DNA of 64,000 nt from NCBI GenBank assembly GCA_033675265.1, contig JAUJYZ010000447.1, positions 248,001 through 312,000 on the forward strand, given 5' to 3'. The position numbers were made by a program, and so were the translations under genes. The number at the start of each line of letters is the position of its first letter. The stretch's first letter is position 1. The notes beneath the pieces are model-generated. The model worked only from the letters and a program-made list of their open reading frames with translations. It made no database searches and was not told the origin of the DNA. The stretch comes from Actinostola sp. cb2023. Taxonomy: Eukaryota > Cnidaria > Anthozoa > Actiniaria > Actinostolidae. Positions 7,346 through 53,203 of the stretch are shown here, piece after piece.

Positions 7346-8068
7346 GTCCTCAAAATTAGACAGTATGAAAAGTGATAGTTTCAAAGAAAATTACAAATCG
7401 TGCCTACCTCAACAATGGGTGCCTTCAGATGTCGCATTAGTCTTTCGTCTGTCAATAAATCGTAACCTTTATCATCTCGTTTACGGGCTGCTCGAGGTTT
7501 CTTTCGTTTTGGCTCTCGGCTCTCTCTCAGTTGCACTAATTAAGCTCTGCTATTAGCCGGTTTGGACTTGTTTTTCAGATTTCTCCCTGATTTTTTTCAG
7601 GCATTATCTGATGCTGGGTCTTTTCCCTTAACTCGCTGTAGGACGTTTTGAGAGCATCGTAACTGACCAAGGCATTCTACAATAATCGTCTTAGTCGTCT
7701 GTTAGACTATCGTCTACGACGAGAGAATAATTTCATGAAAAAATACTATAAAAATCGTTGAAAATGAAGCTTATTTTGTAGTTCGTCAGAGAGAAAGAAA
7801 TCCGCCACTGTCGACCGGACTGAGCTCCATCTCGAGAAAAATGAGCGCTGAAGCACTGCTACGCATTCTAAACAGCCACAATCAATAGCATAGCAAAACG
7901 TAATTGCCCTGAAATATACCAGTTTGCTAGAATATTCAAGAAGATTCGAACATCGAGAAATCGAACTAAAGCATGCTCGTGTTGTTTCAGATGCTGTTCT
8001 ACAGCATCATCGACCTTACCATATGTCCGATTTCGAGAGAGAAATCTTTGAAAAAGCCAGAGATACGA
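7346..8068. other. Intergenic, no recognised gene
   Basis: An open stretch at 7924-8124 (plus) encodes a charged, helical-looking 66-residue peptide (SDFEREIFEKARDTIKAL) that I do not recognise. It may be a fragment of the eroded element to the right. Nothing else supported. Confidence 0.35.
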
Positions 8069-8539
8069 TCAAGGCACTCGAGAAACGAGGTCGAACAAAA
8101 GTAAACAGACCCGCTCTGGATTGAAACCGTTGATCAATGAAAATTCTTCTCCGACCGGGCCGAAGCCGGTGATGGCATTCGCAAGGCTCCCCACGGACAG
8201 GAGGACTGTCACACTACCTGTGATTAGCGAAGCCTTGTGGAGTCCCGAGTGAGATCGTTTGTACTTATTGAGGACCTGCGTGCTCATAGTGGCTGAGCTC
8301 TGTTTCGATAGACGTCTGAACACCGCTATCTTTTTCAAGCGGTAGTTCTCGACACCCCCGATCCTCGATCCGATTCTCGGAAGGGGGAGGTGTAGGTAGA
8401 GGGAGTCGCTCGCCATGATTACAAATGAAGTCAGGTGATCTCTAATACTAAGCGCAGCGGTCGGCCATTGAGGTATACCACACTGTCCGCACCTGCGAAG
8501 GTTGTGAACATACTCCAGGAATCTTGCTTTTGTGCGCAA
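8069..8539 (-). CDS. Unrecognised ORF with hydrophobic C-terminal half
   Basis: 156 residues. The N-terminal half is basic (SRIGGVENYRLKKIAVFRRL). The second half is glycine/serine-rich and hydrophobic (SLITGSVTVLLSVGSLANAI), resembling a membrane segment. I do not recognise the family. A diverged copy of its middle part lies just to the right (8660-8960), which suggests decayed mobile-element coding DNA. No promoter is visible. Confidence 0.3.
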   Translation of the reverse strand: MRTKARFLEYVHNLRRCGQCGIPQWPTAALSIRDHLTSFVIMASDSLYLHLPLPRIGSRIGGVENYRLKKIAVFRRLSKQSSATMSTQVLNKYKRSHSGLHKASLITGSVTVLLSVGSLANAITGFGPVGEEFSLINGFNPERVCLLLFDLVSRVP

Positions 8540-8960
8540 TGAAGTGGGGGTGCGTATAACACTATCTCCGCACTTGGTGTTGGGGCGTCCGACCTCGCGA
8601 AGATATCAGTTCTTTGAGCGACACCCTAGCGAACCAGAGTAACCACCGAAGAGTCCACGAGATCATAGTGGCCGAGCTCTGTCTCGATAGCCGTTTGGAT
8701 ATCGGCTATATTTTTCAAACGATAGTCCTCGACACCCTCCCGATCGTCGCACTGATTCTCGGAAGGGGGAGGGGTGGGTAGAGGGAGTCGCTCGCCATGA
8801 TTACAAATAAAGTCAGGTGATCTCTAATACCACACCGTCTGCACTGCCTTTAACACGAATGCAAAGGTTGTGAACATACTCAACGGATCTTGCTTTTGTG
8901 CGCAATGGAGTCGAGGGTGCGTAAGTCACTTTCTCCGCACTTATTGCTGGCGCGTCCAAC
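8270..8960. repeat. Diverged tandem duplication, about 385-bp period
   Basis: The segment with ctcatagtggctgagctctg and ggaagggggagg then tagagggagtcgctcgccatg (about 8277-8420) recurs at about 8665-8805. Further matches run to gcgcaatgaagt/gcgcaatggagt. Rough identity by eye is 85 percent, so the duplication is old. Confidence 0.7.
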
Positions 8961-28305: not shown

Positions 28306-28698
28306 TACATAAGATAGGACTAAGATAAGTATAGGCAGAGCGATTCTTCTTCCCTGTTACATAAGATAAGACTAAGATAAGTATAGGCAGAGCGATTCTT
28401 CTTCCCTGTGACATAAGATAGGACTAAGATAAGTATAGGCAGAGCGATTCTTCTTCCCTGTTACATAAGATAGGACTAAGATAAGTATAGGCAGAGCGAT
28501 TCTTCTTCCCTGTGACATAAGATAGGACTAAGATAAGTATAGGCAGAGCGATTCTTCTTCCCTGTTACATAAGATAGGACTAAGATAAGTATAGGCAGAG
28601 CGATTCTTCTTACCTGTGACATAAGATAGGACTAAGATATGTATAGGCAGAGCGATTCTTCTTCCCTGTTACATAAGATAGGACTAAGATAAGTATAG
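28306..28698. repeat. 52-bp minisatellite, left half (Maverick target)
   Basis: About 7.5 units of acataagataggactaagat, aagtataggcagagcgattc, ttcttccctgtt. The same array resumes in the same orientation at 52103. The Maverick therefore inserted into one continuous minisatellite. Confidence 0.95.
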
Positions 28699-28704
28699 GC
28701 AGAG
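28699..28704. repeat. Left target site duplication gcagag
   Basis: Six bases duplicated at 52097-52102. Six bp is the length produced by Polinton/Maverick integrases. Confidence 0.9.
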
Positions 28705-28880
28705 AGTAGTGAGGTAGTTCTACACTTTCGCCCCCCCCCTAATTTTATACACCCGCTAGACCAATCAGCGGCCGCCAGGGCAAACCCCGCACCAATCACA
28801 ACCCCGGATTTCGACCCCCACCCCCCACCCACAATGCACCGCTAAAGGGACCTGGAACCGAACCACCCCCTCTGCCAAAA
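28705..28880. repeat. Left terminal inverted repeat
   Basis: Pairs with 51922-52096. The only visible differences are C-run length near 28730 and one substitution near the inner end. It includes CCAAT-like ccaatca motifs and a taattttataca stretch near the tip. Confidence 0.95.
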
Positions 28881-29048: not shown

Positions 29049-29691
29049 TTACATTTTTGGACCGTACAGGGTGCCCGGCTTTCTAGCCGCGGTGGCCTCG
29101 ACGATGGAATCCTCGATCTCGTCCTCCTCCGCCTCGATCTCCTCGGCCTCGTCCACCTCCTCCTCGTCGACCCTCCTCCTCCTGGGGACCGCCCGCTTCT
29201 CCTTCTTCCTCTTCGTCGTTCTCTTCTTCTTGGGGGGCTCCTCCTCCTCCTCGGAACTGTCCGCGGAACTGTCCTCGGTCTTGGGCATGGTGCCGTTGTA
29301 CCACTCGAAGAAGCCGCAGCCCTGGTCCGGGAAGGAGACGGGGCAGGTGAAGAAGGTGCGGCCCGAGTTGAGCGCCGACTGGCACACCCCGGTCTTGACG
29401 TAAAGATCGTGATGGCAACGGGGAAATTCCCTGAAGTCCATCGCCAGCAACTTCGGGTGCAGGAGGGCGTAGTGGTCCTCCTTCATGTTGAGGTTGCACC
29501 CCAGCTTCATCCTGGCCAGCCGGGCCCCCCCCATCGCTCCGGTTCTTGTATTTCTTCTGCTTGGTCCTAATGGCGCCGTAATCCAACTCGACCCCGCACT
29601 TCAGGTAGGTCTCCTTCGTCGCCTTCGACTGGTAGGTCTGGCAGGGCTGGATGCAAAAGCACGTCGGCACGAGGGCGCTTCTTCTGGCCAT
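29049..29691 (-). CDS. GRF-type zinc-finger protein, frameshifted
   Basis: The N-terminus (ATG at 29691) has CFCIQPCQTYQ and CGVELDYGA. A frameshift lies at the C8 run 29525-29532. The second frame holds CHHDLYVKTG, C and GRTFFTCP, then CGFFEWYNG, the pattern of GRF zinc fingers, which bind single-stranded nucleic acid in topoisomerase III and APE2-type proteins. The tail has an acidic Ser/Glu tract, a Lys/Arg nuclear-localisation-like block (PPKKKRTTKRKKEKR) and an acidic end. A role in genome replication or repair is inferred. It is the outermost left gene, and about 214 residues is its expected size. Confidence 0.75.
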
Positions 29692-31778: not shown

Positions 31779-31799
31779 CGGGACCGCTCTTCTAGTAGA

Positions 31800-33213
31800 C
31801 TAGTAGTCGTTCTTCAGGGCCCAGTTCTTCGACCCGTCGCACCACACCTCCTGTTCGAACTCGCCGATGAAGACCAGCGTGGTGTTGTTGGCCGTGGGGG
31901 CGGAAAACTCGATCTCGATCGAGACGTTGCCGAGGGTGCGCCCGTAGACGTAGCCCGCGTTCAGCGCCCCGTCCGGGTTGAAGTTCCACAGCAGGAGGTA
32001 GTTGCCGTCCTTGTAGTCCTCCCTCGAGATGCCGAAGGACTGGAAGTCGAAGAGCTTGCCGGCGAAGTTGGCGAGGGTGAGGTAGCCTTCGCACTTGTCG
32101 TGACTGTCCAAGACGATGGGGGGGGGGGGGGGGAAGCTCTTCTCCGTCCACCGTCACCTTTATCTGCTTCTGGTTCATGTCGCCAAAGTTGAAGGGGTTG
32201 CGCGCGTAGCTCCCCGTGTAGGCGTCGCCCCGCACCAGGCCCACGACCATGTAGTTGGGGCTGAAGCCCGTGAAGACGTTGGAGAACTTCTCCCGGGTGC
32301 GCCCGTTGATGATGGTGTGCGTGACGATGCGCTTCTCCATGACGGGATAGAAGGCGATCTGCTGATTCTGCAGCATGGCGGCCTCGTTCTGGAGGTGCAG
32401 CTGGGGATTCGCCTCGACGTGGTAGATCCACACCGCGGGCGACTGCGGCACGATCTTGAACTTGGGGAGGGTGACGGTGGTGTCGCCGCTCATCAGTACC
32501 AGGGCGGGAAGGTTCCAGCGCACGCGGAAGTCGATCTGCGTGCCCGGGGTCAGGTACTTGATCTGGTCGAAGACGCTGACGACGGGGCTGATGACGAAGG
32601 TCACCCGACGATTCTGACAGCACAGCCCGTGACGGGCCGCGGCCCCCGCGTTCGGCGTGGCGCGGACCAGGGCGTTGGCGATGGCCGTCTGGATGTTGGC
32701 CGCCGCGTTGTCCGTGGGCGCCACCACCGGCCGCGCCAGCGGGTCGGTGTCGTCGAACTTGCCGGGGGTGTCGGTGTACCAGCCCTCGACGGACAGGAAC
32801 TCCTTCTTCTCTGCATCGCTGAACTTGAGCAGCCTGTCGACGTAGGCGGTGTAATGGTAGTCGGCGAGGCCCGAGGGCACCAGCGTCTTGTTGAAGTGGA
32901 CGTCGAACTGTTTGATCAGGGAGTGCCCGATCAGGTTGATGGGGGCGACCTTGTTCGCGGCCAGCAGCAGGGTGGTGTTGTCGTTCGCCACGAACTCCAC
33001 GGTGTAGACGAACAGGGTCTTGCTGAGGTCCACCCACCGACGCGTCGGGTCGACCTTGATCTGCAGGGGGTTGGTGGTGAGCTCGCTCTGCGTGAACACC
33101 TCGTAGCGGGTCTTCTCGACCGTGGTGTCCACCGGCAGCGTCTGAAACAGGTCTCGCATGGTGCCCTTCTGCACCTCCGTCACGGCGGGGGCCTTCTTGT
33201 TCTTCGCGTTCAT
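31800..33213 (-). CDS. MCP: Major capsid protein (double jelly-roll, F54H12.2-like)
   Basis: ATG at 33213 with a TATA box about 40 bp upstream. About 470 residues. MRDLFQTLPVDTTVEKTRYE, GHSLIKQFDVHFNKTLV, FRVRWNLPALVLMSGD, NPFNFGDMNQKQIKV, and in a second frame GISREDYKDGNYLLLWNF follow the Maverick MCP (C. elegans F54H12.2-type) pattern. It builds the icosahedral shell as trimers. The sequence is broken only at a G16 run (32118-32133) in a proline stretch, where the reading shifts; the last 100 residues are in the second frame. The homopolymer makes an assembly error plausible. Confidence 0.92.
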
Positions 33214-33252
33214 GGTGGCGGCGGTGGAGGAGGAAAAGGGGGGAGAACCACG

Positions 33253-33260
33253 TTTTTATA
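33253..33260 (-). promoter_or_regulatory. TATA box of the MCP gene
   Basis: Minus-strand TATAAAAA about 40 bp upstream of the MCP ATG, overlapping the end of the upstream gene. Confidence 0.65.
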
Positions 33261-39345: not shown

Positions 39346-40686
39346 TCAAGACAGATTCTCCAGTCGGGAAGCCGGTAGCCACTCGTCGAACTTCTCGGGC
39401 CAGCCCAACCAGCGGACGAACACCTCTTCTCGGGCGGACCCTCGGGCCCCGCGACGCTTTATGACTTTCTCGACGCGGAAGGTGGCCGTCTTCTGTTCTT
39501 CTGGCGTCACCTTCTGCAGCTCCGGCTCGTAGAACAGGCCCTCCACCGGCTCGTCCTGCAGGTCCTCCAGACGGTAGTGGGGCGGCGGGCCCCGGTCGCG
39601 GGCGCGCACGCGAAACCACTCCTCCGACCAGCGCGGCAGGTAGCCCTTGCGAAAGAGGGTGCCCTGCCGACTGATCCTCACCGTGTCGCCGACCGCGAAG
39701 CCGAAGGCGAGGGGCGTCTCGCGCTCGGCCGCCCGGGCCCCGTGCACCGTCTTCCAGACGGCCTCCTCGTCGGCCCTGGTGATCGAGGCGGGGGACCGCT
39801 TCAGTGTGGCGTGCCGGGCGTGGATGTACGAGTCGACGATGGCGGGCAGCACCGTCACCCACTCGGAGTCGCCCTTCTCGTAGAGGCGCTTCCAGAGGCG
39901 GGTCTTGATCGTGCGCTGGACCCGCTCCACCACGGCCGCCTTGGTGTGGTCGTGCCCCGACTGCAGCAGGGCGGGGATGGGCAGGCCCGCCAGCAGGTCC
40001 CCGACGTGGCGGTTGTAGAACTCCTTCCCCCGGTCCACGTAGACGACGCGGGGCAGGCCGTGCTGGCCGTCCCCGTCGGGCGCCGTCACCTCTCGAAAGA
40101 TGTCCTTCAGGGCCGCCGCCGTCTCCTCCCCCGTCTTGCGACGCATCGGGCGGGTCCAGACGTGGCGCGAGAAGACGTCGATGGCGAACAGGATCCAGGC
40201 GTGGCCGTCGTTCTGCCCCTTGTACCACTGCATGTCCGAGAGGTCGAGTTGCCACATCTCGTCGAGGGAGTGCACCACGAAGGCCCGTCGCGGGTAGTTC
40301 TTGCGCGACGGTCGGTGGATCTGGTGGGTGGTCTGCGAGGCGATCCAGGCCTCCTTGTCGGAGCGGTCCTTGCGCGGTTCTTCGCCCAGCACGGATCGGG
40401 TGCCCGCGTAGGCCTGGGGGTGGTGGGCCCCGGCCTCAAAGTACTGTCGAAACCACCGGTCCGTCTTGGCTCGCGTCTTTGCCAGGGACGCCTTCTTCGC
40501 CTTCTTCGGGAGGGTTCTCTCTCCTTCCGTCTTCGTCGTCCCAGGCCTCGCGCTCCGACGCCTCCCGACGCCGCCTCTTTGAGAGACCCCGGGACACGAT
40601 GCGGCCTCCGCAGCAGGCCATGTTGCAGCATCGCGTCTGGGCGTCTCGTCCGACGCGGTGGGTGGCGCTGACGGTGGGCAGGGCAT
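39346..40686 (-). CDS. INT: rve-family integrase with C-terminal chromodomain
   Basis: 446 codons from the ATG at 40686. The DDE triad is intact: MWQLDLSDMQW (Asp), RVVYVDRGKEFYN (Asp) and HTKAAVVERVQRTIK (Glu). A C-terminal chromodomain reads TFRVEKVIKRRG and EEVFVRWLGWPEKFDEWLP. It makes the 6-bp TSD insertion. The first 60 residues look compositionally odd. An overlapping frame starting with an ATG at 40714 (MGLTSAKPKDALPTVS) may be the true N-terminus with a frameshift near 40500. That ATG lies 18 bp past the polymerase stop. Confidence 0.92.
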   Translation of the reverse strand: MPCPPSAPPTASDETPRRDAATWPAAEAASCPGVSQRGGVGRRRSARPGTTKTEGERTLPKKAKKASLAKTRAKTDRWFRQYFEAGAHHPQAYAGTRSVLGEEPRKDRSDKEAWIASQTTHQIHRPSRKNYPRRAFVVHSLDEMWQLDLSDMQWYKGQNDGHAWILFAIDVFSRHVWTRPMRRKTGEETAAALKDIFREVTAPDGDGQHGLPRVVYVDRGKEFYNRHVGDLLAGLPIPALLQSGHDHTKAAVVERVQRTIKTRLWKRLYEKGDSEWVTVLPAIVDSYIHARHATLKRSPASITRADEEAVWKTVHGARAAERETPLAFGFAVGDTVRISRQGTLFRKGYLPRWSEEWFRVRARDRGPPPHYRLEDLQDEPVEGLFYEPELQKVTPEEQKTATFRVEKVIKRRGARGSAREEVFVRWLGWPEKFDEWLPASRLENLS

Positions 40687-40731
40687 CTTTCGGTTTGGCA
40701 GAGGTCAGTCCCATCGTTTTAATAATGTGCG

Positions 40732-45351: not shown

Positions 45352-45590
45352 GCGTGACAAGATTGTGTGACAAGGACCCTTTACATAGTCACCCGGGTGC
45401 GTGACAAGATTGCGTGACAAGAACCCATTTACATAGTCACCCGGGTGCGTGACAAGATTGCGTGACAAGGACCCATTTACATAGTCACCCGGGGTGCGTG
45501 ACAAGATTGCGTGACAAGGACATATTTACATAGTCACCCGGGGTGCGTGACAAGACTGCGTGACAAGGACCCATTTACACAATCATCCAC
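45352..45590. repeat. Five 48-bp repeats upstream of PolB
   Basis: Unit gcgtgacaagattgcgtgac, aaggacccatttacatagtc, acccgggt. Each contains gcgtgacaa twice. It sits between the two diverging arms of the element, where regulatory or replication sequences would be expected. It is open in one minus frame only because 48 is divisible by three. Confidence 0.85.
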
Positions 45591-46196
45591 TCACCCTAAC
45601 TTCTTCTTCTTCTTCTTCTTCGCCGCCTCCTACTTCGTCACAACAATGGTAATCGATCAAGCAAGGCCCCCACCAGATATCTTCACGGTCCTGCAAAATA
45701 AATAAAGAATTTAAAATTTAAAATAAATCAATAAATCAATTAGGATTTAATTATCCCACCTCTTCGATTAGATTCCAAGCTTGCTGGTATCCCCAATCTT
45801 CTATGTCCATCTCTTCACGACTCCTTGCCGTTGTCGAAATGATCGATGTTGGTGGGTCGTATTTATGAGGACCGTTCTTCATTAATATTAATTTCAATGT
45901 TCCGTATATGGTCCTATAAGCAGGGTTACGATATCCGTTCCAGGCGCGTTCCAGAGTATGGATTTCCGTTCCAAGTTCGTTCCATGGGGCGTTCCAGCGT
46001 ATGGATTTCCGTTCCAGGGTCGTTCCAAGTAATGATTTCCGTTCCAGGATCGTTCCGGGGTCGTTCCAAGTAATGATTTCCGTTCCAGGATCGTTCCATG
46101 GGTCGTTCCACGACCTGAATCGAAAGTGATCAGAGGGGGGTGGGGGGACCCCCCTAGGAAGTCAACCCCTCTGTGATGAATTCATTAGCGTGCGTG
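45591..46196. other. Intergenic region between the two arms
   Basis: No gene. It holds a (TTC)n tract (45600-45620), AT-rich sequence with overlapping AATAAA hexamers near 45697-45706, and the GTTCC repeats at 45929-46115. Confidence 0.55.
45929..46115. repeat. GTTCC-rich tandem repeats upstream of the right-arm promoter
   Basis: Seven to ten copies of (gatttcc)gttccagg(g/a)tcgttcca spaced 28-40 bp, ending 85 bp before the TATA box of the leader. Could be an upstream regulatory array. Confidence 0.7.
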
Positions 46197-46198
46197 CA

Positions 46199-46206
46199 TA
46201 TATAAG
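46199..46206 (+). promoter_or_regulatory. TATA box of the right-arm cassette
   Basis: TATATAAG, 104 bp upstream of the leader ATG. A cagtctagtcatc stretch at about 46220-46232 would suit a start site. Confidence 0.7.
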
Positions 46207-46309
46207 AGACGTGTTCGGGCAGTCTAGTCATCTCGCTCTAGAAGCAACATCAGAGAGAAGAAGAAGAAGAAGCAGAATAATAAGAAGATAAAGAAGAAGA
46301 AAGATAAAT

Positions 46310-46461
46310 ATGGAAAGTCAGGTAAGATAAAATATATATCAATTTTATTATAACTTAATTTAATTTCGATTAATCCAATAGCGTTTAATTTACAGAATAA
46401 CGAAGCAAATAACGAAGCAAATAACAAGAGAGCCGGCGATCAAGGGAGCGAGGAAATTGTG
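46310..46461 (+). CDS. Two-exon ATG leader of the alternative-exon cassette
   Basis: Exon 1 is 46310-46321 (ATG GAA AGT CAG) with donor CAG|GTAAGA. The intron 46322-46395 ends in tttacag. Exon 2 is 46396-46461 (22 codons, with an AAYAACGAAGC-type repeat giving NNEANNEANN) with donor GTG|GTGAGT. Total 78 nt, so the leader ends in phase 0 and encodes a 26-residue acidic/asparagine-rich peptide. It provides the only good ATG for the downstream bodies. The leader peptide may be a shared tag or simply carry the start codon. Confidence 0.75.
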
Positions 46462-46468
46462 GTGAGTA

Positions 46469-46579
46469 GGGGAAATCCCCCATTTGCATTTTGTCCTCAT
46501 TTTGCGAAAGTGAAATATCTCTCCGCGTCCTCATTTGCATTTTGCGAAAGTGAACTATCTCGGTGGCGGGGAAATCCCC
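46469..46579. promoter_or_regulatory. Paired kB-like and IRF-like motifs in leader intron 2
   Basis: GGGGAAATCCCC occurs at 46469-46480 and again at 46568-46579. GAAAGTGAAA at 46506-46515 and GAAAGTGAAC at 46546-46555 lie between them. These match the NF-kB (GGGRNWYYCC) and IRF (GAAANNGAAA) consensus sites of animals. The function is inferred from motif identity only. The rest of the intron (to 46802) is mostly (ATTT)n. Confidence 0.5.
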
Positions 46580-46802
46580 CATCGTCCTCATTTGCCTTTT
46601 GAAATGTCTCGGTCACGAAGGCCCCCCATATTTATGTATTTATTTATGTATTTATGTATGTATTTATTTATTTAAATTTATTTATTTATTTATTTATTTA
46701 TTTGTTACCCGGTATTTATTTATTTATTTATTCATTAATTTATTCATTAATTTATTCATTCATTTATTTATACATTCATTTCTTCATTTCTTCCTCCGTC
46801 AG

Positions 46803-47351
46803 GCCAAAAAGAGGTGCGAGGGAGAGACGGACGGGGCGGCGGCTTCTTCATCGAGCGGCGCCCAAGGAGGAGGAGGAGGAGGAGGAGAGGCTTCGAGCAG
46901 CGGGGGGTCGGGGCTCGTCGAGAAAGACAAAGAGAAAGAGAGCGCGGAATCGAACAAGGAGGTGGCCGACGAGACGCTGGTAGGTACCCAATGTACTCTA
47001 TGTTACGATTACGATATGAGCGATCCCCGAGGCCTGATGCCCATGCCGTGCTGCAAACAATCGCAGCACTGGCACTGCCTGTCCCTGTGGGGGTCCACCA
47101 ACTTCGAGACGGCGAAGTCGGCGGTCGTGATGTGTCCCGTCTGTCGGGGGAGAGTGCTCCCCGTGCCCGACTACACGATGTCCAAACTGGGGAGGAGCCG
47201 GGTGAGAGAGATGGAGAGCACCGGCGATTGCACGCTCGCCGTCGTGCCCACGCCTGCTCTGAAGGAAAGTGCCCAACGTCTGGGAATGGGGAGCGAATTT
47301 TATTTCCGCATGGTGAAGGTCCTGCTAGAACCCCCACCCACCAACTCCTAG
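46803..47351 (+). CDS. Cassette body 1: linker plus RING-like domain
   Basis: Acceptor ...ctccgtcag|GCC, frame 0 with the leader. The first 59 codons are a low-complexity Gly/Ser/Glu linker ending at a possible phase-0 donor CTG|GTAGGT (46979), which would let it act as an extra leader exon. Reading on gives CTLC, PCCKQSQHWHC and CPVCRGRV, a variant RING finger with zinc-binding Cys/His pairs. It ends at TAG 47351. RING domains recruit ubiquitin-conjugating enzymes; a ligase role on host proteins is inference. Confidence 0.7.
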   Translation, partial: AKKRCEGETDGAAASSSSGAQGGGGGGGEASSSGGSGLVEKDKEKESAESNKEVADETLVGTQCTLCYDYDMSDPRGLMPMPCCKQSQHWHCLSLWGSTNFETAKSAVVMCPVCRGRVLPVPDYTMSKLGRSRVREMESTGDCTLAVVPTPALKESAQRLGMGSEFYFRMVKVLLEPPPTNS

Positions 47352-47368
47352 CGTCTCTCTCTTTGCAG

Positions 47369-47608
47369 CTGATCGGTCGCATCTTCGACAAACACGCCGG
47401 GGCCCTCGTGAAAAATATCGAGGACGGGGTGAAGCTGAAGGCCTTTCTGGAGGGGGAGATTAAGTGGCTGACGGAGCGCCTCGACATCGAGATCAGCACC
47501 TACCCCAACGAGTTGATCGACACCCTCTGCGATGTGATAGAAAATGCGGTCGAGCCGGCGCTCGTCAAGTATCGCGATCTGGTCGAGGAGTACACCCTCC
47601 TCCGATGA
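47369..47608 (+). CDS. Cassette body 2: helical, no methionine
   Basis: Acceptor ctctctctttgcag|CTG, frame 0. 79 codons to TGA at 47608, with no Met anywhere, so it needs an upstream start codon. Helical and charged (ALVKNIEDGVKLKAFLEGEI, NELIDTLCDVIENAVEPAL). Family unknown. Confidence 0.65.
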   Translation: MIGRIFDKHAGALVKNIEDGVKLKAFLEGEIKWLTERLDIEISTYPNELIDTLCDVIENAVEPALVKYRDLVEEYTLLR

Positions 47609-47651
47609 AAAAACCCACGAGAACCCAGGTCTCTTTTTTTCTCTTTCTCAG

Positions 47652-47966
47652 CCATTGGAACAGAACCTGCGCTGTCGCATGCGAACAGACATGGTCGTGT
47701 TGTACTTTGAACTGGGAATCAACATGGCACTCCTTGCCAGCCTGCAGCATTTTGCGATAGAGAACGAGATGTGGCTGCACGAAGACGGGACCGGGGTGGC
47801 CTTTGGACTCTTTGGGACGCGTACCCACCCCTATTGGAAAGCTCTGCATCGTTACCGGGAGGGGTTGCGGGATTATCGGGACCGTCTCGGTCGCCAGTAC
47901 AAAAACATAATAGCCGGGAAGACCACGAACGAGAGAATACGTCTGGTTCTGGCGGTCTTATCTTAG
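47652..47966 (+). CDS. Cassette body 3: helical, unknown
   Basis: Acceptor tttctctttctcag|CCA, frame 0. 104 codons to 47966. The first Met is codon 10. Contains DMVVLYFELGINMALLASLQ and YREGLRDYRDRLGRQYKNII. Unrecognised; not similar to its neighbours by eye. Confidence 0.6.
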   Translation, partial: PLEQNLRCRMRTDMVVLYFELGINMALLASLQHFAIENEMWLHEDGTGVAFGLFGTRTHPYWKALHRYREGLRDYRDRLGRQYKNIIAGKTTNERIRLVLAVLS

Positions 47967-47991
47967 TCGTTTTTTTATTTCTCCTGTGTAG

Positions 47992-48850
47992 TGTTCCGTC
48001 ACCTGTTCCATCTGCCTGGGGGGGGCTCGGGGACGGCACGGTGGAGATGCTCTGCTGCCACAACAGATTTCACGAGCTCTGCCTCGCGACGTGGTTGGTG
48101 ACCGCCCCCGCGGTGAGCTGTCCCCACTGCCGGTGCACCGCCATCCGGTTGAATTTTTACAGCGGGATCGTCATGCAGTACCTGACGCACATGTTCGACA
48201 AAGTTCACAGGGTGTTGGGGCACCGGAACAATGCGGTGCAACACTACATGGGAACCTTCGTGACCCGCCTGATGTTGAACGTGCTGGGGTATCGTGCGCA
48301 AGGGTTCCCCGACGGGTATCATTTCTGTCGCACCGACATGTGGGAGATGAGGGACGACCACCGTCGGTGCCTCCTGTGCGGGGCGGGGGAGAAGGCAGAC
48401 AGTTGGCATCGCTTCTGCTGCGAGGCCCACCACGGGCGGGGGTGTCGGCACAGTGGATGGGGTCCCACGGGGGTGTATTACGCTCACGGGGTCTGCATGT
48501 CCAATTACATCATAGCCCAGCCCTACCCCACCCCCTGCCCCGTGCCCCAGTCGGCGAGCCCCAGGGAGGAACTTGTTCCCACTCTGACGAACCTGGTTGT
48601 GCTGGAGCGCGTCTTCCTCAGACAGATGGGACAACACCACCCGGGGAGCTGGTGCCTGCGGTGGATGATCGGGATGATGAGGATCTACTGCAAGGAGCTG
48701 TTCTTCTGCCTGCTGCTGTTCAGCCATCGCAAGGGGAAGGCCCGGCAGCGTGGCATGCGACACATCGACCTCCGCGTCAACTGCCCGGCCTTCTTCCGCG
48801 GTCACGTCCAGTCCTACTTCACCCGCCTGGAGCAACTGGAGTTCCTCTGA
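47992..48850 (+). CDS. Cassette body 4: RING finger plus Cys/His-rich region
   Basis: Acceptor tctcctgtgtag|TGT, frame 0. It opens with CSVTCSICLG, the first RING Cys pair. A G8 run (48018-48025) then shifts the reading into the frame with EMLCCHNRFHELCLATW and CPHCRC, completing a C3HC4-type RING. A second Cys/His cluster follows (CLLCGAGEKADSWHRFCCEA, HHGRGCRHS), then a hydrophobic stretch (YCKELFFCLLLFS). TGA at 48848-48850 ends it. Probable E3 ubiquitin ligase; the first Met comes after the first zinc ligands, which supports splicing from the leader. Confidence 0.7.
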
Positions 48851-49066
48851 ACCTGCGAGCAGGGCGATTGTCGCAACGTGCTGGCCCCCTGGGAGGAACG
48901 TCCCGAGAGCGCGGCGTGGTGCGAGGACTGTCGGGAGCAGGCGGCGAGGGTGGCGGCGGTGACGGCGGTCTCCTCGGGAACCTCCTCGGAAACCCCCTCG
49001 GAAACCCCCTCGGAAACCCCCTCGGGAAATGTCGGCATGGTGCTGCGCAGCGGGCGCACCCTGTAA
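48851..49066 (+). CDS. In-frame continuation after TGA of body 4
   Basis: 71 codons in the same frame with protein-like content: CEQGDC, WCEDCREQA (two Cys pairs) and a 15-bp tandem repeat giving SETPSETPS before NVGMVLRSGRTL. No acceptor or ATG precedes it. It is most simply the original C-terminus of body 4, cut by a nonsense mutation, or reached by readthrough. Confidence 0.45.
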   Translation, partial: TCEQGDCRNVLAPWEERPESAAWCEDCREQAARVAAVTAVSSGTSSETPSETPSETPSGNVGMVLRSGRTL

Positions 49067-49097
49067 TTGATCATTCCTCTCTCTTCGTTTTCTCCAG

Positions 49098-49931
49098 CCC
49101 TCCCGTGTGTTCGCGATAGAGCCCCGTTACGTGGTCTTCTTTGCGGAGGCGTTGATGTTCGAGGGGTTCGGGCCCGAGGACTCTTGGACCATGGGGACCA
49201 TCGACACCCCCGCGGACGTGCCCGAGCCCGACGACTACGAGGGTAATTTTCTAGAACAGTTCGTCAGAGCCTACGCCTGGTTGACCACCTACCGTCTGGA
49301 GAACTCTACCCGTGCCACTTTTCCAGGACTCCTCAGCACGGACATGATCGTGGAAGTCAACCAGCTGGTGACGGGGCATCCGAGAGGCAAGCTCAGCGAG
49401 CGCCCCCGCATCACGTCGTTTGACGGCAAGGTTCACCGATACCCCTGCCAGAATCTGGAGCTGGGGTTGGACCGTCTCGTCGACGAGGTCAACCAGCGCG
49501 CGTTCAAGCATCGTTATCGGGGGCGCACGCTGGAATACTTACTGCACGCGGTGGGGCGATTCGTTCACGGCTTCTTGGAGCTTCACCCGTTCCCCGACGG
49601 CAACGGGCGCACGGTGAGGCTGCTCTACGCCTACCTGATGGAGAGCGGGGGCGTTCCATTTCCCCCCCACGTCACGTCCCAGGCCGCCGCCCTCTCGAGC
49701 TCGTGCGTCGAGTTCTCGGGGGAGGGGGGCCAATGGCGGGTCTGCTGGGGGCGGGATGCCTTTAACATCGCGGCCGAATCCCTGAAGGACTGGTGCCGTC
49801 TCCTGACGGCGGCCCGAGAGAGCGAGTGCGGGTGGATGCGGGTGGTGGACGAATTGCGCGGGGCCCTGGAGCGTCAGGCGCGACAGCTGGGAATGTGGGA
49901 CACGAAGGCCTTCTGGTCGGGGGAATGGTGA
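49098..49931 (+). CDS. Cassette body 5: Fic-domain protein (AMPylase-type)
   Basis: Acceptor cgttttctccag|CCC, frame 0; 277 codons. Residues about 163-171 are HPFPDGNGR, the full Fic active-site motif HPFx(D/E)GNxR including the catalytic His. It is preceded by LEYLLHAVGRFVHGFLE as in Fic folds. Upstream, TYRLEN (residues 64-69) matches the (S/T)xxxE(G/N) autoinhibitory motif of class II Fic proteins. Fic enzymes transfer AMP or other nucleotide moieties to target hydroxyls, and several bacterial effectors act on host GTPases or chaperones. Catalytic competence is expected from the motif; the target is unknown. The first Met is codon 20. Confidence 0.85.
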   Translation, partial: PSRVFAIEPRYVVFFAEALMFEGFGPEDSWTMGTIDTPADVPEPDDYEGNFLEQFVRAYAWLTTYRLENSTRATFPGLLSTDMIVEVNQLVTGHPRGKLSERPRITSFDGKVHRYPCQNLELGLDRLVDEVNQRAFKHRYRGRTLEYLLHAVGRFVHGFLELHPFPDGNGRTVRLLYAYLMESGGVPFPPHVTSQAAALSSSCVEFSGEGGQWRVCWGRDAFNIAAESLKDWCRLLTAARESECGWMRVVDELRGALERQARQLGMWDTKAFWSGEW

Positions 49932-49960
49932 TTGACCTCCTTCTCCTCCTCCTCTCTCAG

Positions 49961-49964
49961 ACCC

Positions 49965-50000
<36 letters not shown>

Positions 50001-50218
50001 TCGTCGCTCATCTGGTGGCGGTGGCGGAGACGGTGCCGATGGAGGACGACGACGACGACGACGCCGAGGGGTGGATAGAGGAGGAGGAAGAGGTGGAAGA
50101 GGATGCGGATTTCGAAGTCCCCGGATTTTACGTCGACATAAAGGGGAGGTGGTGGCATGGGAACGGGGAGCCCGTGCTCTCGGAGACGGAGTGGCGCTGG
50201 GTGAAGGCGGAGGCTTAG
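49961..50218 (+). CDS. Cassette body 6: acidic Asp/Glu-rich protein
   Basis: Acceptor cctcctctctcag|ACC, frame 0; 85 codons. Two Asp tracts from GAC repeats, then EGWIEEEEEVEED, and a folded-looking end VPGFYVDIKGRWWHGNGEPV. Possible nucleic-acid mimic or chaperone-like tail. Unknown family. AATAAA at 50419 could serve its mRNA. Confidence 0.6.
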
Positions 50219-50475
50219 ACATGCGTCGTATAATCATTTTTTTTTAAACTCGATCTCTTCCGCTTCTTTCTGGAGGTGCAGCTGCGGTTAGAAGAGGAAG
50301 AAGAAGAAGAGGCGGACTTTGAAGTCTTCGTATTTAAAGTCCGCGACATAAAGGGGAGTTGGTGGCGGGAGGGCGGGGAGCCCGTGCTTAGATTTTAGTA
50401 ATGTAATCACTTTTTCAAAATAAATTCTTTTAATGAAACTCAATCTCTTCCGCTTCTTTCTGGAGGTGTCCACAC
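50083..50475. repeat. Partial duplication of body 6 and the antisense gene's end
   Basis: 50083-50180 (gaggaagaggtggaagagg, gacataaaggggaggtggtg, cggggagcccgtgct) recurs diverged at about 50290-50390. ctcttccgcttctttctgga at 50255-50280 recurs at 50445-50470. A single tandem duplication of about 190 bp explains both, leaving a broken second copy. Confidence 0.75.
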
Positions 50476-50873
50476 CCCGCGGGCGAAGATTCTTCTCTGA
50501 GGAGGGCCTCCATTCGAAGGTTTCGAACCTCCAGGTGGGGGGCGTCGAACCCGACCCGATGGGCCCATTCCCCATTTCCGTAGTGGCGATGGATGCCCTC
50601 CGCGTACCGCGCCATCACCTTGCGAAGCTGGGGGAAGGTGGGGTAGGTCCAACGGAGACGCCGAAGGAGCCCTCTGAGGTGGGGCGAGCAGAAGGGCTTT
50701 CGATCGTAGCAGAGTCGGTCCATCTCCACCTCGGCGGTGTCGTGGTAGTCGAGGAGGAGGGAGGTGTAGTCCATCTGTGTGCCTTTTCTCGAGAGCTCGT
50801 GGACGCGCTCGTCGAAGTGGAAGCCGTGGGCCTCGAGGCGCTCGATGAGTCTGGCGTGCAACCTCGTCCGCAT
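50430..50873 (-). CDS. Antisense gene between cassette exons, unknown
   Basis: 147 codons from the ATG at 50873. Charged and His/Arg-rich (RLIERLEAHGFHFDERVHEL, DYTSLLLDYHDTAEVEMDRL, FPQLRKVMARYAEGIHRHYG). The stop overlaps a minus-strand ATTAAA signal. It lies wholly within the intron that would be removed when bodies 7-9 are used. No family recognised. Confidence 0.5.
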   Translation of the reverse strand: MRTRLHARLIERLEAHGFHFDERVHELSRKGTQMDYTSLLLDYHDTAEVEMDRLCYDRKPFCSPHLRGLLRRLRWTYPTFPQLRKVMARYAEGIHRHYGNGEWAHRVGFDAPHLEVRNLRMEALLREESSPAGCGHLQKEAEEIEFH

Positions 50874-50918
50874 CGTCGTGCCAAATGATGGGTTTTAATC
50901 CCCCCTCTCTCTTTTCAG

Positions 50919-51503
50919 GAGTTCGCAAGACGGTTGCGAATCGGAGGCGTGCTCCGCCCTCGGCCCGACGAGCTCCTGGCGTTCTGCGACTGTGTCTGTT
51001 ACTACATCGCCAAGAGACTCGCCGAGCAGGAGAAAGTGCGGGAGCAGGCCCTCCTGTACGGGTGGCACGGGCGGTGGGACACGTGGCACTTTCACCAAGT
51101 GGATTTTTGGAACTCGATGTTCGAAGTCGTCCGGCGGCGGATGACGTGCCCCCTGAACCACAAGTCCCTGCTCGCGTTGATTCCCTGCCTGCTGGACAAG
51201 TACCGTCCCCGGGGGGGCCAGCGCGTGAGGCTTCGGCACCTGCTGTCGGAACGCGTTCAGGCCATCCTCGACAACCTCTCCGTCGCCTCCCTGCTTCGCA
51301 TGCGCGACACCAAGCGACGGGTGAAGGGAGGCGGTCCGAGGGAGGTCATGCACTGCCTCCTGGCCAAGAGGCTGTCGTCGTCGTTCCACACCCGCTTGGG
51401 GTACCCCTACTACACCTACTCCCACCCCATCACCCCGAACTGGACCCGCCGGATCGAGCAGATTTTGGACCTCGTGTGCTGGAGGTCCAAATCCTTGTTC
51501 TAG
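50919..51503 (+). CDS. Cassette body 7: unknown, 194 codons
   Basis: Acceptor tctctcttttcag|GAG, frame 0. EFARRLRIGGVLRPRPDELL, CDCVCYYIAKRLAEQEKV, HGRWDTWHFHQVDFWNSMFE and a basic C-terminal half. The first Met is after residue 60. Not recognised. Confidence 0.6.
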   Translation, partial: EFARRLRIGGVLRPRPDELLAFCDCVCYYIAKRLAEQEKVREQALLYGWHGRWDTWHFHQVDFWNSMFEVVRRRMTCPLNHKSLLALIPCLLDKYRPRGGQRVRLRHLLSERVQAILDNLSVASLLRMRDTKRRVKGGGPREVMHCLLAKRLSSSFHTRLGYPYYTYSHPITPNWTRRIEQILDLVCWRSKSLF

Positions 51504-51532
51504 TTCTTGCCTGTTTCTTTTTTTTTCATCAG

Positions 51533-51784
51533 TGTCTCGACTGTCAGCAGCCCATCCATCCCTTCGAGACCCCCACCAAGTCCTACTGTTGCAGCGCCTC
51601 GTTCCACCCCGACTGCATCGCGAAGTTTGCGGTGGCGCGGGTCGGTGCCTCCTGTCCCAAGTGCGGAACGACGGCCCCCCTCATCATTGCCATTGGGGAC
51701 AACACTAGGGCCCCCGGGTTGTACAGCCCCGCCCTTGCCTTTGTTTATCTGCCCTCTGAAAGGAAGTCAATAAATCCATGGTGA
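51533..51784 (+). CDS. Cassette body 8: compact RING-like finger, no methionine
   Basis: Acceptor tttttttcatcag|TGT, frame 0; 83 codons with no Met. CLDCQQPI, KSYCCSASFHPDCIAKF and CPKCGTTAP form a C-C / C-C-H-C / C-C RING-like pattern. Translation must begin in another exon. An AATAAA (51770-51775) lies inside its last codons. Confidence 0.7.
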   Translation, partial: CLDCQQPIHPFETPTKSYCCSASFHPDCIAKFAVARVGASCPKCGTTAPLIIAIGDNTRAPGLYSPALAFVYLPSERKSINPW

Positions 51785-51815
51785 TGACGTGTCTGTTGTT
51801 GTTTGTCCACTTCAG

Positions 51816-51875
51816 GATCCGGAGATGGCCGCTCGCATCGTGAGGCGTCACCTGTTCCGGATGGGCTATTACTAG
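51816..51875 (+). CDS. Cassette body 9: 19-codon terminal exon
   Basis: Acceptor tttgtccacttcag|GAT, frame 0; encodes DPEMAARIVRRHLFRMGYY then TAG. It is followed 14 bp later by AATAAA (51889-51894). Could be the default last exon of the longest transcript. Confidence 0.5.
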   Translation, partial: DPEMAARIVRRHLFRMGYY

Positions 51876-51888
51876 AAGTCGAAAATTC

Positions 51889-51894
51889 AATAAA
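51889..51894 (+). terminator. AATAAA poly(A) signal at right end of element
   Basis: caataaaaatattc, 33 bp inside the right TIR; common 3' end candidate for the cassette transcripts. Confidence 0.6.
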
Positions 51895-51921
51895 AATATT
51901 CATAAATCTCGACTGGACTCT

Positions 51922-52096
51922 TTTTGGCCGAGGGGGTGGTTCGGTTCCAGGTCCCTTTAGCGGTGCATTGTGGGTGGGGGGTGGGGGTCGAAATCCGGGG
52001 TTGTGATTGGTGCGGGGTTTGCCCTGGCGGCCGCTGATTGGTCTAGCGGGTGTATAAAATTAGGGGGGGGGGAAAGTGTAGAACTACCTCACTACT
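51922..52096. repeat. Right terminal inverted repeat
   Basis: Reverse complement of 28705-28880 with one indel in the G-run and one substitution by eye; ends CTACCTCACTACT. Confidence 0.95.
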
Positions 52097-52102
52097 GCAG
52101 AG
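52097..52102. repeat. Right target site duplication gcagag
   Basis: Copy of 28699-28704; continues straight into the minisatellite unit. Confidence 0.9.
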
Positions 52103-52953
52103 CGATTCTTCTTCCCTGTTACATAAGATAGGACTAAGATAAGTATAGGCAGAGCGATTCTTCTTGCCTGTTACATAAGATAGGACTAAGATAAGTATAG
52201 GCAGAGCGATTCTTCTTCCCTGTTACATAAGATAGGACTAAGATAAGTATAGGCACAGCGATTCTTTTTCCCTGTTACATAAGATAGGACTAAGATAAGT
52301 ATAGGCAGAGCGATTCTTCTTCCCTGTTACATAAGATAGGACTAAGATAAGTATAGGCAGAGCGATTCTTCTTACCTGTGACATAAGATAGGACTAAGAT
52401 AAGTATAGGCAGAGCGATTCTTCTTACCTGTGACATAAGATAGGACTAAGATAAGTATAGGCAGAGCGATTCTTCTTCCCTGTTACATAAGATAGGACTA
52501 AGATAAGTATAGGCAGAGCGATTCTTCTTCCCTGTGACATAAGATAGGACTAAGATAAGTATAGGCAGAGCGATTCTTCTTACCTGTGACATAAGATAGG
52601 ACTAAGATAAGTATAGGCAGAGCGATTCTTCTTCCCTGTGACATAAGATAGGACTAAGATAAGTATAGGCAGAGCGATTCTTCTTCCCTGTTACATAAGA
52701 TAGGACTAAGATAAGTATAGGCACAGCGATCTTCTTCCCTGTTACATAAGATAGGACTAAGATAAGTATAGGCAGAGCGATTCTTCTTCCCTGTTACATA
52801 AGATAGGACTAAGATAAGTATAGGCAGAGCGATTCTTCTTCCCTGTTACATAAGATAGGACTAAGATAAGTATAGGCAGAGCGATTCTTCTTCCCTGTTA
52901 CATAAGATAGGACTAAGATAAGTATAGGCACAGCGATTCTTCTTCCCTGTTAC
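52103..52953. repeat. 52-bp minisatellite, right part
   Basis: About 16 units in the same orientation and sequence as the left part. G/T (gtgac/gttac) and c/a variants occur on both sides, consistent with one original array of about 24 units. Confidence 0.95.
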
Positions 52954-53203
52954 AACTCTTACCAACTTCTACTTTATTTTACGAACTCCGAATAATTATA
53001 TGCTTGAAAAAGCCCAATTTCAAGCACGAATACCTAATCCCTACAATCCATAGGGTGATAATATTTTGTTATTTATTTACTTGTTTCTTTGGCTTTTTTC
53101 TTTCTTTTCACTTTTTATTTTATTCTAAAAGAAGCTACTTTTTTTATTCAAAATTTTGCGAGTGGCGCATTTGCGTCCTTGCGTCCGGCTAGCTACGCCC
53201 CTG
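52954..53203. other. AT-rich intergenic
   Basis: T-rich low-complexity sequence with no supported gene. Confidence 0.5.

Follow-up and report, generated by a model that had tools for sequence, protein, structure and literature searches.

A probable shared coding leader with alternative 3' exons in the right arm of an Actinostola Maverick element

The element and its cassette

The window (the whole 64,000-nt stretch analyzed, from contig JAUJYZ010000447.1 of the deep-sea anemone Actinostola sp. cb2023) contains a Maverick/Polinton element with a cassette of coding bodies in its right arm (Table 1). The assignment to Mavericks, already made by a sequence-only reading of this DNA, is backed by the inverted repeats and the 6-bp duplication, by a family B DNA polymerase (PolB; PF03175, E = 1.5e-18, above the cut-off), whose gene is frame-broken, and by an integrase with a chromodomain (PF00665 and PF00385, both above the cut-off; 39346–40704, minus strand). 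A candidate packaging ATPase (FtsK/A32-like) matched Pox_A32 with an E value of 2.7e-4, under Pfam's cut-off. The major-capsid candidate, an ORF picked by eye (31792–33255, minus strand), had no match in Pfam or among PDB sequences. A search of PHROGs gave no useful matches; the capsid candidate and body 4 each had a weak single match there (E = 0.035 and 0.098, respectively).

Table 1. Positions of the element, leader and bodies in the window
Feature	Position	Strand	Remarks
Target-site duplication	28699–28704 and 52097–52102		GCAGAG, 6 bp; flanks the Maverick on both sides
Maverick/Polinton element	28705–52096		23,392 bp; host insertion site is a 52-bp tandem repeat
Left terminal inverted repeat	28705–28880	+	98.9% identity to the right one (176-column alignment)
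Right terminal inverted repeat	51922–52096	-
TATA box of cassette promoter	46199–46206	+
Leader exon 1	46310–46321	+	ATG, MESQ; donor GTAAGA
Leader exon 2	46396–46461	+	phase 0 end; donor GTGAGT
Leader exon 3	46803–46979	+	second half of bipartite-NLS-like motif, then low-complexity charged linker
Body 1	46980–47351	+	RING-type domain; in line with exon 3
Body 2	47369–47608	+	79 aa; five aligned copies share no Met
Body 3	47652–47966	+	104 aa; no Pfam or PHROGs match
Body 4	47992–48850	+	RING-type domain, Cys/His-rich C terminus
Body 5	49098–49931	+	Fic domain with HPFPDGNGR
Body 6	49961–50218	+	acidic protein, 85 aa
AATAAA after body 6	50419–50424	+	at this place in 6/6 copies
Antisense ORF	50430–50873	-	own ATG; homologues at the equivalent place in five sister cassettes
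Body 7	50919–51503	+	194 aa; no Pfam or PHROGs match; first Met in the window is the 67th residue
Body 8	51533–51784	+	RING-like; first Cys of the RING pattern at residue 1
Body 9	51816–51875	+	short basic peptide; phase 0 in 6/6 copies
AATAAA at or just past body 9 end	51889–51894	+	6/6 copies

We compared the window cassette with five sister copies from the same genome. Body order is identical in all six cassettes. The copies are related: they form two deep lineages, whose PolB proteins are 52%–63% identical, and a third, degraded one (L025).

The TATA box and the two-exon ATG leader ending in phase 0 that had been read from the sequence are indeed present. The TATA box lies 90–111 nt upstream of the ATG in five of the six copies and is absent from L020. 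An AUG-bearing leader with a phase-0 donor is conserved in 6/6 copies: all keep, in phase 0, both the donor GTGAGT after exon 2 and the donor at 46980 after exon 3 (GTAGGT in the window and L020, GTAAGT in the other four). Two copies carry intron 1 and four lack it cleanly, and its gain or loss leaves the frame unchanged; exon 3 varies in length from 162 to 345 nt and is every time a multiple of 3. A bipartite-NLS-like motif, KR-x(9-10)-AK[KR]R, becomes complete only once exon 2 joins exon 3.

Exon 3 and bodies 2–9 each open at an AG with a pyrimidine tract (20-nt pyrimidine fraction, 0.75–1.0), at the nine positions proposed earlier; some sister acceptors have weak tracts (0.55–0.65). The accompanying proposal of nine alternative bodies, each opening in frame 0 and ending in its own stop, stands for acceptors and phase but not for body 1, which is exon 3 read straight into the RING if the donor at 46980 is unused, nor for body 4 of the window, which shifts frame. 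There the acceptor frame opens with CSVTCSIC and then changes inside a G run near 48018–48025; in the sisters it reads into the RING in 5/5 copies. With body 1 as the unspliced continuation of exon 3, the cassette has eight downstream alternatives and one in-line product.

Start codons are scarce at the body starts. The window copies of bodies 2 and 8 lack Met altogether, as claimed, but L021–L024 have internal ones, at the 14th or 15th residue of body 2 and at the 52nd residue of body 8, past the RING. The first zinc ligands of body 4 do stand before any Met. No Met is common to five copies in bodies 2, 8, and 9, or within the first 80 residues of body 7. An in-frame TAG is the acceptor itself in 6/6 copies of body 4, 2/5 of body 5, and 4/6 of body 9. 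When compared with PDB sequences, body 5 matched Fic proteins (best E = 0.0017) and body 1 gave weak matches only. The first part of body 5 is missing from the L022 cassette, and a poly(A)-type signal is also found 3' of body 2 in 5/5 sisters.

Conservation of acceptors, phase, and coding sequence

The comparison with sister copies, which the sequence-only reading had named as a check, found both acceptors and phase conserved. Of the 53 combinations of body and copy, 52 have a phase-0 AG where the body begins, giving several same-phase acceptors, each of which opens a body that ends in its own stop. The two deep lineages share acceptors, phase, and leader donors, and the degraded one keeps part of these: L025 retains the phase-0 acceptor at bodies 3, 4, and 8 and has lost the AG of body 2. 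L020 is without the AG of body 5.

Between the window and L024, dN/dS was 0.44 for body 2, 0.48 for body 8, 0.22 for body 9, and 0.15 for the whole of body 7, and it was 0.20 over the 82 codons ahead of the first shared Met of body 5. At the sequence level, these ratios show that stretches ahead of any shared Met are under purifying selection between the two deep lineages. Ratios above 1, from few changes, were obtained between the window and L020 (body 8, and bodies 5 and 6 ahead of their Met) and between L023 and L024 (body 9). Nucleotide identity rises modestly with position relative to the acceptor, from 0.44–0.51 at -60 to -25 to 0.60–0.64 at +1 to +30 and 0.66–0.71 beyond; the zone from -1 to -4 is distorted by alignment gaps. 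Two phase-0 GTs, 47202 in body 1 and 49614 in body 5, are likewise conserved, which may reflect their codons. We conclude that the copies show conserved acceptors, donors, and phase, together with coding selection without a shared start codon.

Alternative explanations

The AGs listed in the window were chosen by a reader, and in GC-rich coding DNA such a row might arise by chance; at a pyrimidine fraction of at least 0.75 the window has 17 sites, nine of them body starts and the other eight further [CT]AGs inside the cassette. At a fraction of at least 0.85, plus-strand sites are body starts in 7/7 cases in the window and in 26/30 over the six copies. A phase-blind test took the most pyrimidine-rich [CT]AG from -100 to +60, in an interval centered on the body start, and hit the exact start in 49/53 body-by-copy cells, the copies being related; it did so for 8/9 bodies in the window (4.0 expected, P = 0.003) and for 8/9 in L024 (2.5 expected, P = 7e-5). 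This result and the exact conservation of acceptors in five sister copies support the earlier statement that the arrangement is better than chance, and we regard chance or reader selection as very nearly negligible. A constitutive multi-exon gene was also considered and is disfavored because the intact bodies terminate on their own, near the acceptor that follows. Among 40 stop-to-acceptor gaps over the six copies, 21 measure 17–48 nt and eight, after early-ending bodies, 84–990 nt; six of 510–762 nt lie between bodies 6 and 7, the site of the antisense ORF; in four, all from sisters, body 1 overlaps the acceptor of body 2, and one further overlap comes from the broken body 4 of the window.

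Identical acceptors would also be expected if the bodies were separate genes, each with a promoter inside the preceding body and a small ATG-bearing 5' exon spliced to its acceptor. Between bodies 6 and 7, five copies retain weak GT sites at 50535, 50638, and 50643; each of these is preceded in the window by an in-frame ATG, so that bodies 7–9 might use one of them. However, a scan of 45500–53000 for plus-strand TATA[AT]A found none among the bodies, only the box at 46199, one within intron 1 (46333), and one within the right inverted repeat (52053); a non-exhaustive scan for donors kept in five copies, which missed the leader donor itself, found none in bodies 2, 3, 4, 7, and 8, which for bodies 2, 3, and 4 argues against separate genes; and all acceptors share phase 0 with the leader donors. 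Separate genes are, on this evidence, improbable. We judge slightly less probable still that the acceptors take a host spliced leader that brings the AUG, as spliced leaders can in flatworms; spliced leaders are not known in anthozoans. A row of ORFs whose acceptors follow closely on the previous stop does resemble a trans-spliced operon, and Hydra has spliced leaders; Hydra and Clytia are the cnidarian cases in the published accounts consulted. Trans-splicing would, however, require a spliced leader ending in AUG to explain phase 0, and the element itself has a coding leader whose phase-0 donors are conserved.

Proposed expression, relatives, and known systems

The reading best supported by acceptors, phase, and donors kept across lineages is the one first proposed, a shared coding leader with alternative 3' exons: very probably, the right arm of the Maverick is expressed by alternative cis-splicing. 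Transcription from one promoter, at the element's right end, would give a pre-mRNA beginning with a short coding leader, composed of exons 1 and 2 (a single exon in the other lineage) and then exon 3, all with phase-0 ends. Were the donor at 46980 skipped, translation would continue into the RING-type body 1; if it were used, the leader would be joined to one of eight downstream phase-0 acceptors, giving bodies 2 and 3, the RING-type body 4, the Fic body 5, the acidic body 6, body 7, the RING-like body 8, or the basic body 9. Splicing of these donors to these acceptors in the RNA is inferred. Every product would carry a common N terminus with the bipartite-NLS-like motif, followed by a charged flexible linker, and the leader presumably has a nuclear role. 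With two conserved poly(A) signals, the bodies may fall into two 3' families, 1–6 and 7–9. Bodies 7–9 presumably use the same leader, less certainly than bodies 2–6, because a conserved poly(A) signal and the antisense ORF intervene.

At E <= 0.001, neither body 1 nor the downstream part of body 4 retrieved any protein relative from outside this genome. Body 5 had five relatives, three Actinostola proteins and two metagenomic ones, and the metagenomic Fic relative P0004 starts with Met near the start of body 5. Scans of viral contigs gave 11 loci with distant Fic matches and were otherwise empty, and no match to body 5 was found in a phage collection. In 9.9-kb stretches at two further PolB-bearing places (C1201 and C890), tblastn with the bodies of L020, L023, and L024 detected no cassette. 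One public Actinostola model, P0001, has a polyproline stretch at its start, resembling a pyrimidine tract that has been translated. In the public annotation, MAKER was used to combine predictions, and the term "RNA-seq" does not appear in the accompanying paper. A shared coding leader would explain both the genes that lack start codons and their misplacement by gene finders, of which P0001 is an example.

We lean slightly toward viewing the right arm as an open-ended plug-in locus that collects host-manipulating effectors under a unified N terminus. If so, a phase-0 acceptor and a stop would suffice to give a new domain a promoter, a start codon, a nuclear-targeting N terminus, and co-regulation, and the effector set would comprise three RING-type proteins, a Fic enzyme, and several proteins of no known family. 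This suggests a route by which a virus could add protein domains without adding promoters.

Maverick/Polinton and adintovirus elements share the PolB, chromodomain rve integrase, inverted repeats, and 6-bp duplication seen here; a literature search found no report of a shared coding leader in them. Adomaviruses may also have spliced late ORFs, possibly with one leader joined to several. Polyomavirus T antigens combine a common coding N-terminal exon with alternative C-terminal parts, but their products are few and are not encoded as a series of independent bodies with separate stops and acceptors. In Drosophila, mod(mdg4) and lola join a common coding 5' part to many alternative 3' exons, many with zinc-binding domains; these, however, are cellular transcription-factor genes with other shared domains. 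Mavericks are often placed close to the point from which adenoviruses and other DNA viruses of eukaryotes arose. Like the adenovirus major late unit, which also belongs to a linear dsDNA virus, the cassette combines a single promoter and a single leader with many alternative acceptors and several poly(A) sites. The tripartite leader of adenovirus is untranslated, and its bodies use their own AUG, whereas here the leader is coding and carries the AUG, the junction phase is fixed, and bodies 2, 8, and 9 have no shared Met. If our reading is correct, Maverick/Polinton elements would hold a counterpart of the adenovirus late unit in which the leader is coding.

Element and cassette layout

The host assembly (424 Mb, 1594 contigs) is that of a hydrothermal-vent sea anemone and was built from PacBio and Illumina reads and polished, as described in PMC10803348. 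The mobile element that carries the cassette ends in inverted repeats of ~176 bp (98.9% identity) and is flanked on either side by GCAGAG; because it inserted within a 52-bp host tandem repeat, the target-site duplication is easy to read. PolB and an integrase with rve and chromodomain scored above the Pfam cut-offs, a packaging ATPase match fell below its cut-off, and the capsid gene is a candidate. The element fits a Maverick most closely.

Features of the element and cassette, in window coordinates
Feature	Position	Strand	Length	Remark
Host tandem repeat, left	28306-28704			52-bp repeat
Mobile element	28705-52096		23,392 bp	
GRF zinc-ribbon protein	29049-29600	-		close to left element end
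Cassette	46199-51894	+		
Leader exon 1		+	12 nt	
Leader exon 2		+	66 nt	
Leader exon 3	46803-46979	+	177 nt	phase-0 end at donor 46980
Antisense ORF	50430-50873	-		separates body 6 from body 7, window and five sister cassettes
Host tandem repeat, right	52097-52954			52-bp repeat

The TATA box, the ATG leader and all nine acceptors claimed in the sequence-only reading are present in the sequence. That reading had treated the nine acceptors as alternatives. Eight of them lie downstream of the exon 3 donor; body 1, the reading frame opened by the first acceptor, is the in-line product, because the exon 3 frame runs on past the donor into a RING-type domain. RING-type Pfam matches below the cut-off were obtained for bodies 1 (E 1.9e-5), 4 (E 9.2e-5) and 8 (E 0.0039), and body 5 gave a Fic match above it. 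Pfam matches were absent from bodies 2, 3, 6 and 7, and no significant one was found for the antisense ORF. Three relatives of body 5 are proteins of Actinostola sp. cb2023 itself, each on a different contig. A public Actinostola gene model (P0003, contig C7) is predicted to fuse Fic with body 6.

Sister copies, acceptors and leader

A DNA search with body 5 hit at least 8 places, the window among them, and part of body 4, searched as protein, gave at least 10 matches; six stretches were compared with the window. Five of these (L020-L024) share the window's order of bodies 1-8 and antisense ORF, the match to body 5 in L022 beginning only at residue 118; the sixth (L025) represents a third, degraded lineage. 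Searching with PolB gave 17 matches. Measured against the window PolB, the one adjoining the L020 cassette has 92% identity and those adjoining the L021-L024 cassettes have 52-63%. At two other places with PolB matches (C1201 and C890), no cassette was found in the stretches where it would be expected.

Conservation of acceptor and phase, which the sequence-only reading had proposed to check in sister copies, was borne out: across nine bodies in six copies (the window and L020-L024), with L022 body 5 left out, the start of the body is marked by AG in 52 of 53 cells, the sole exception being L020 body 5. Sister body starts were located with tags taken from the alignments. Independently of tag placement, tblastn matches to window bodies 2, 3, 5, 7 and 8 begin at residues 1-6 in L020-L024 (except L022 body 5); those to body 6 begin at residues 16-18 in L021-L024, and those to body 1, whose opening part is of low complexity, at residues 6-44. 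When the [CT]AG richest in pyrimidines was picked near each body irrespective of phase, it coincided with the start of that body in 49 of 53 cells and failed to do so for window body 2, L020 body 5, L023 body 2 and L024 body 3. When bodies 2, 3, 4 and 8 were compared in L025, phase-0 acceptors were present at bodies 3, 4 and 8, and the AG of body 2 was lost.

The leader ends in phase 0 at GTGAGT in all six copies, and donor 46980 reads GTAAGT in four and GTAGGT in two. Exon 3 measures 177, 162, 243, 243, 261 and 345 nt in the six copies. Intron 1 is present in the window and L020 and absent, with the frame unchanged, from L021-L024; five of the six have a TATA box. In every copy, KR precedes the exon 2-3 junction and AK[KR]R lies just past it, 9-10 residues away. 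Set against the consensus, this pair looks like a bipartite nuclear signal and would presumably function as one.

A scan for donors kept in five copies recovered 46980 and 47202 (body 1), 49614 (body 5) and three weak sites between bodies 6 and 7, with none in bodies 2, 3, 4, 7 or 8; the scan was not exhaustive, since it missed the leader donor itself. The GT sites at 47202 and 49614 are in phase 0 and could allow further fusions, or may be conserved through their codons alone.

AATAAA follows body 6 in all six copies, and a second stands at or just past the end of body 9, again in all six. The window has no AATAAA or ATTAAA from body 1 to body 6, and in the sisters a signal directly follows body 2 (AATAAA in four, ATTAAA in one). 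Because they lie after the antisense ORF, bodies 7-9 need either their own promoter or read-through of the earlier poly(A) signal. Beyond the poly(A) signal of body 9, L021-L024 carry an acceptor-like TTCAG, which might open a tenth body.

Several copies are interrupted. Window body 4 changes frame within a G run and the window PolB is split among several frames; among the sisters, L022 body 1, L023 body 3, L021 body 4, L020 body 5 and body 7 of L020, L021 and L022 are interrupted, and L023 body 4 ends early. These interruptions may reflect decay or assembly errors. Downstream of the L020 cassette (reverse-complement 7882-8583) lies another, diverged fragment of Fic and body 6, which suggests nested or recombined copies. 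From reverse-complement 4880 onward in L025, the body 4 frame enters Fic-like sequence, as if the intervening stretch had been deleted.

Source of the start codon

The acceptor of body 4 is an in-frame TAG in all six copies, as are those of body 5 in two of five and body 9 in four of six. Cys is the first residue of body 8 in five of six copies and of body 4 likewise in five of six; that of body 8 is, judged from the RING pattern, a zinc ligand. Selection was analyzed on five aligned copies (L022 left out, and for body 4 the window too). No Met common to these copies occurs in bodies 2, 8 or 9, and body 7 has no shared one in its first 80 residues, to which the test was limited because two of the five are truncated further on. 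Between the window and L024, dN/dS was 0.44 for body 2, 0.48 for body 8, 0.22 for body 9, 0.15 for body 7 and 0.20 across the 82 codons of body 5 that precede its first shared Met. Contrary values, based on few or short comparisons, were obtained between the window and L020 (2.44 for pre-Met body 5, 1.18 for pre-Met body 6, 1.24 for body 8), between L023 and L024 (1.8 for body 9) and between the window and L024 (0.91 for pre-Met body 6). Splicing would have to supply the start, given the in-frame acceptor TAG, the Cys-first bodies, the absence of a shared Met and the low dN/dS between the window and L024.

Cassette products and known systems

The anatomy of the cassette is real and conserved. 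The text of PMC11071308, on related viruses, contains none of splic-, intron, cnidaria or anemone. No Maverick cassette of this kind was described in the titles and abstract openings searched, which does not prove that none exists. On sequence grounds, alternative cis-splicing from the shared coding leader would best explain how the cassette products arise. The known systems with which the cassette compares are those of adenovirus, polyomavirus and adomavirus, together with mod(mdg4) and lola.
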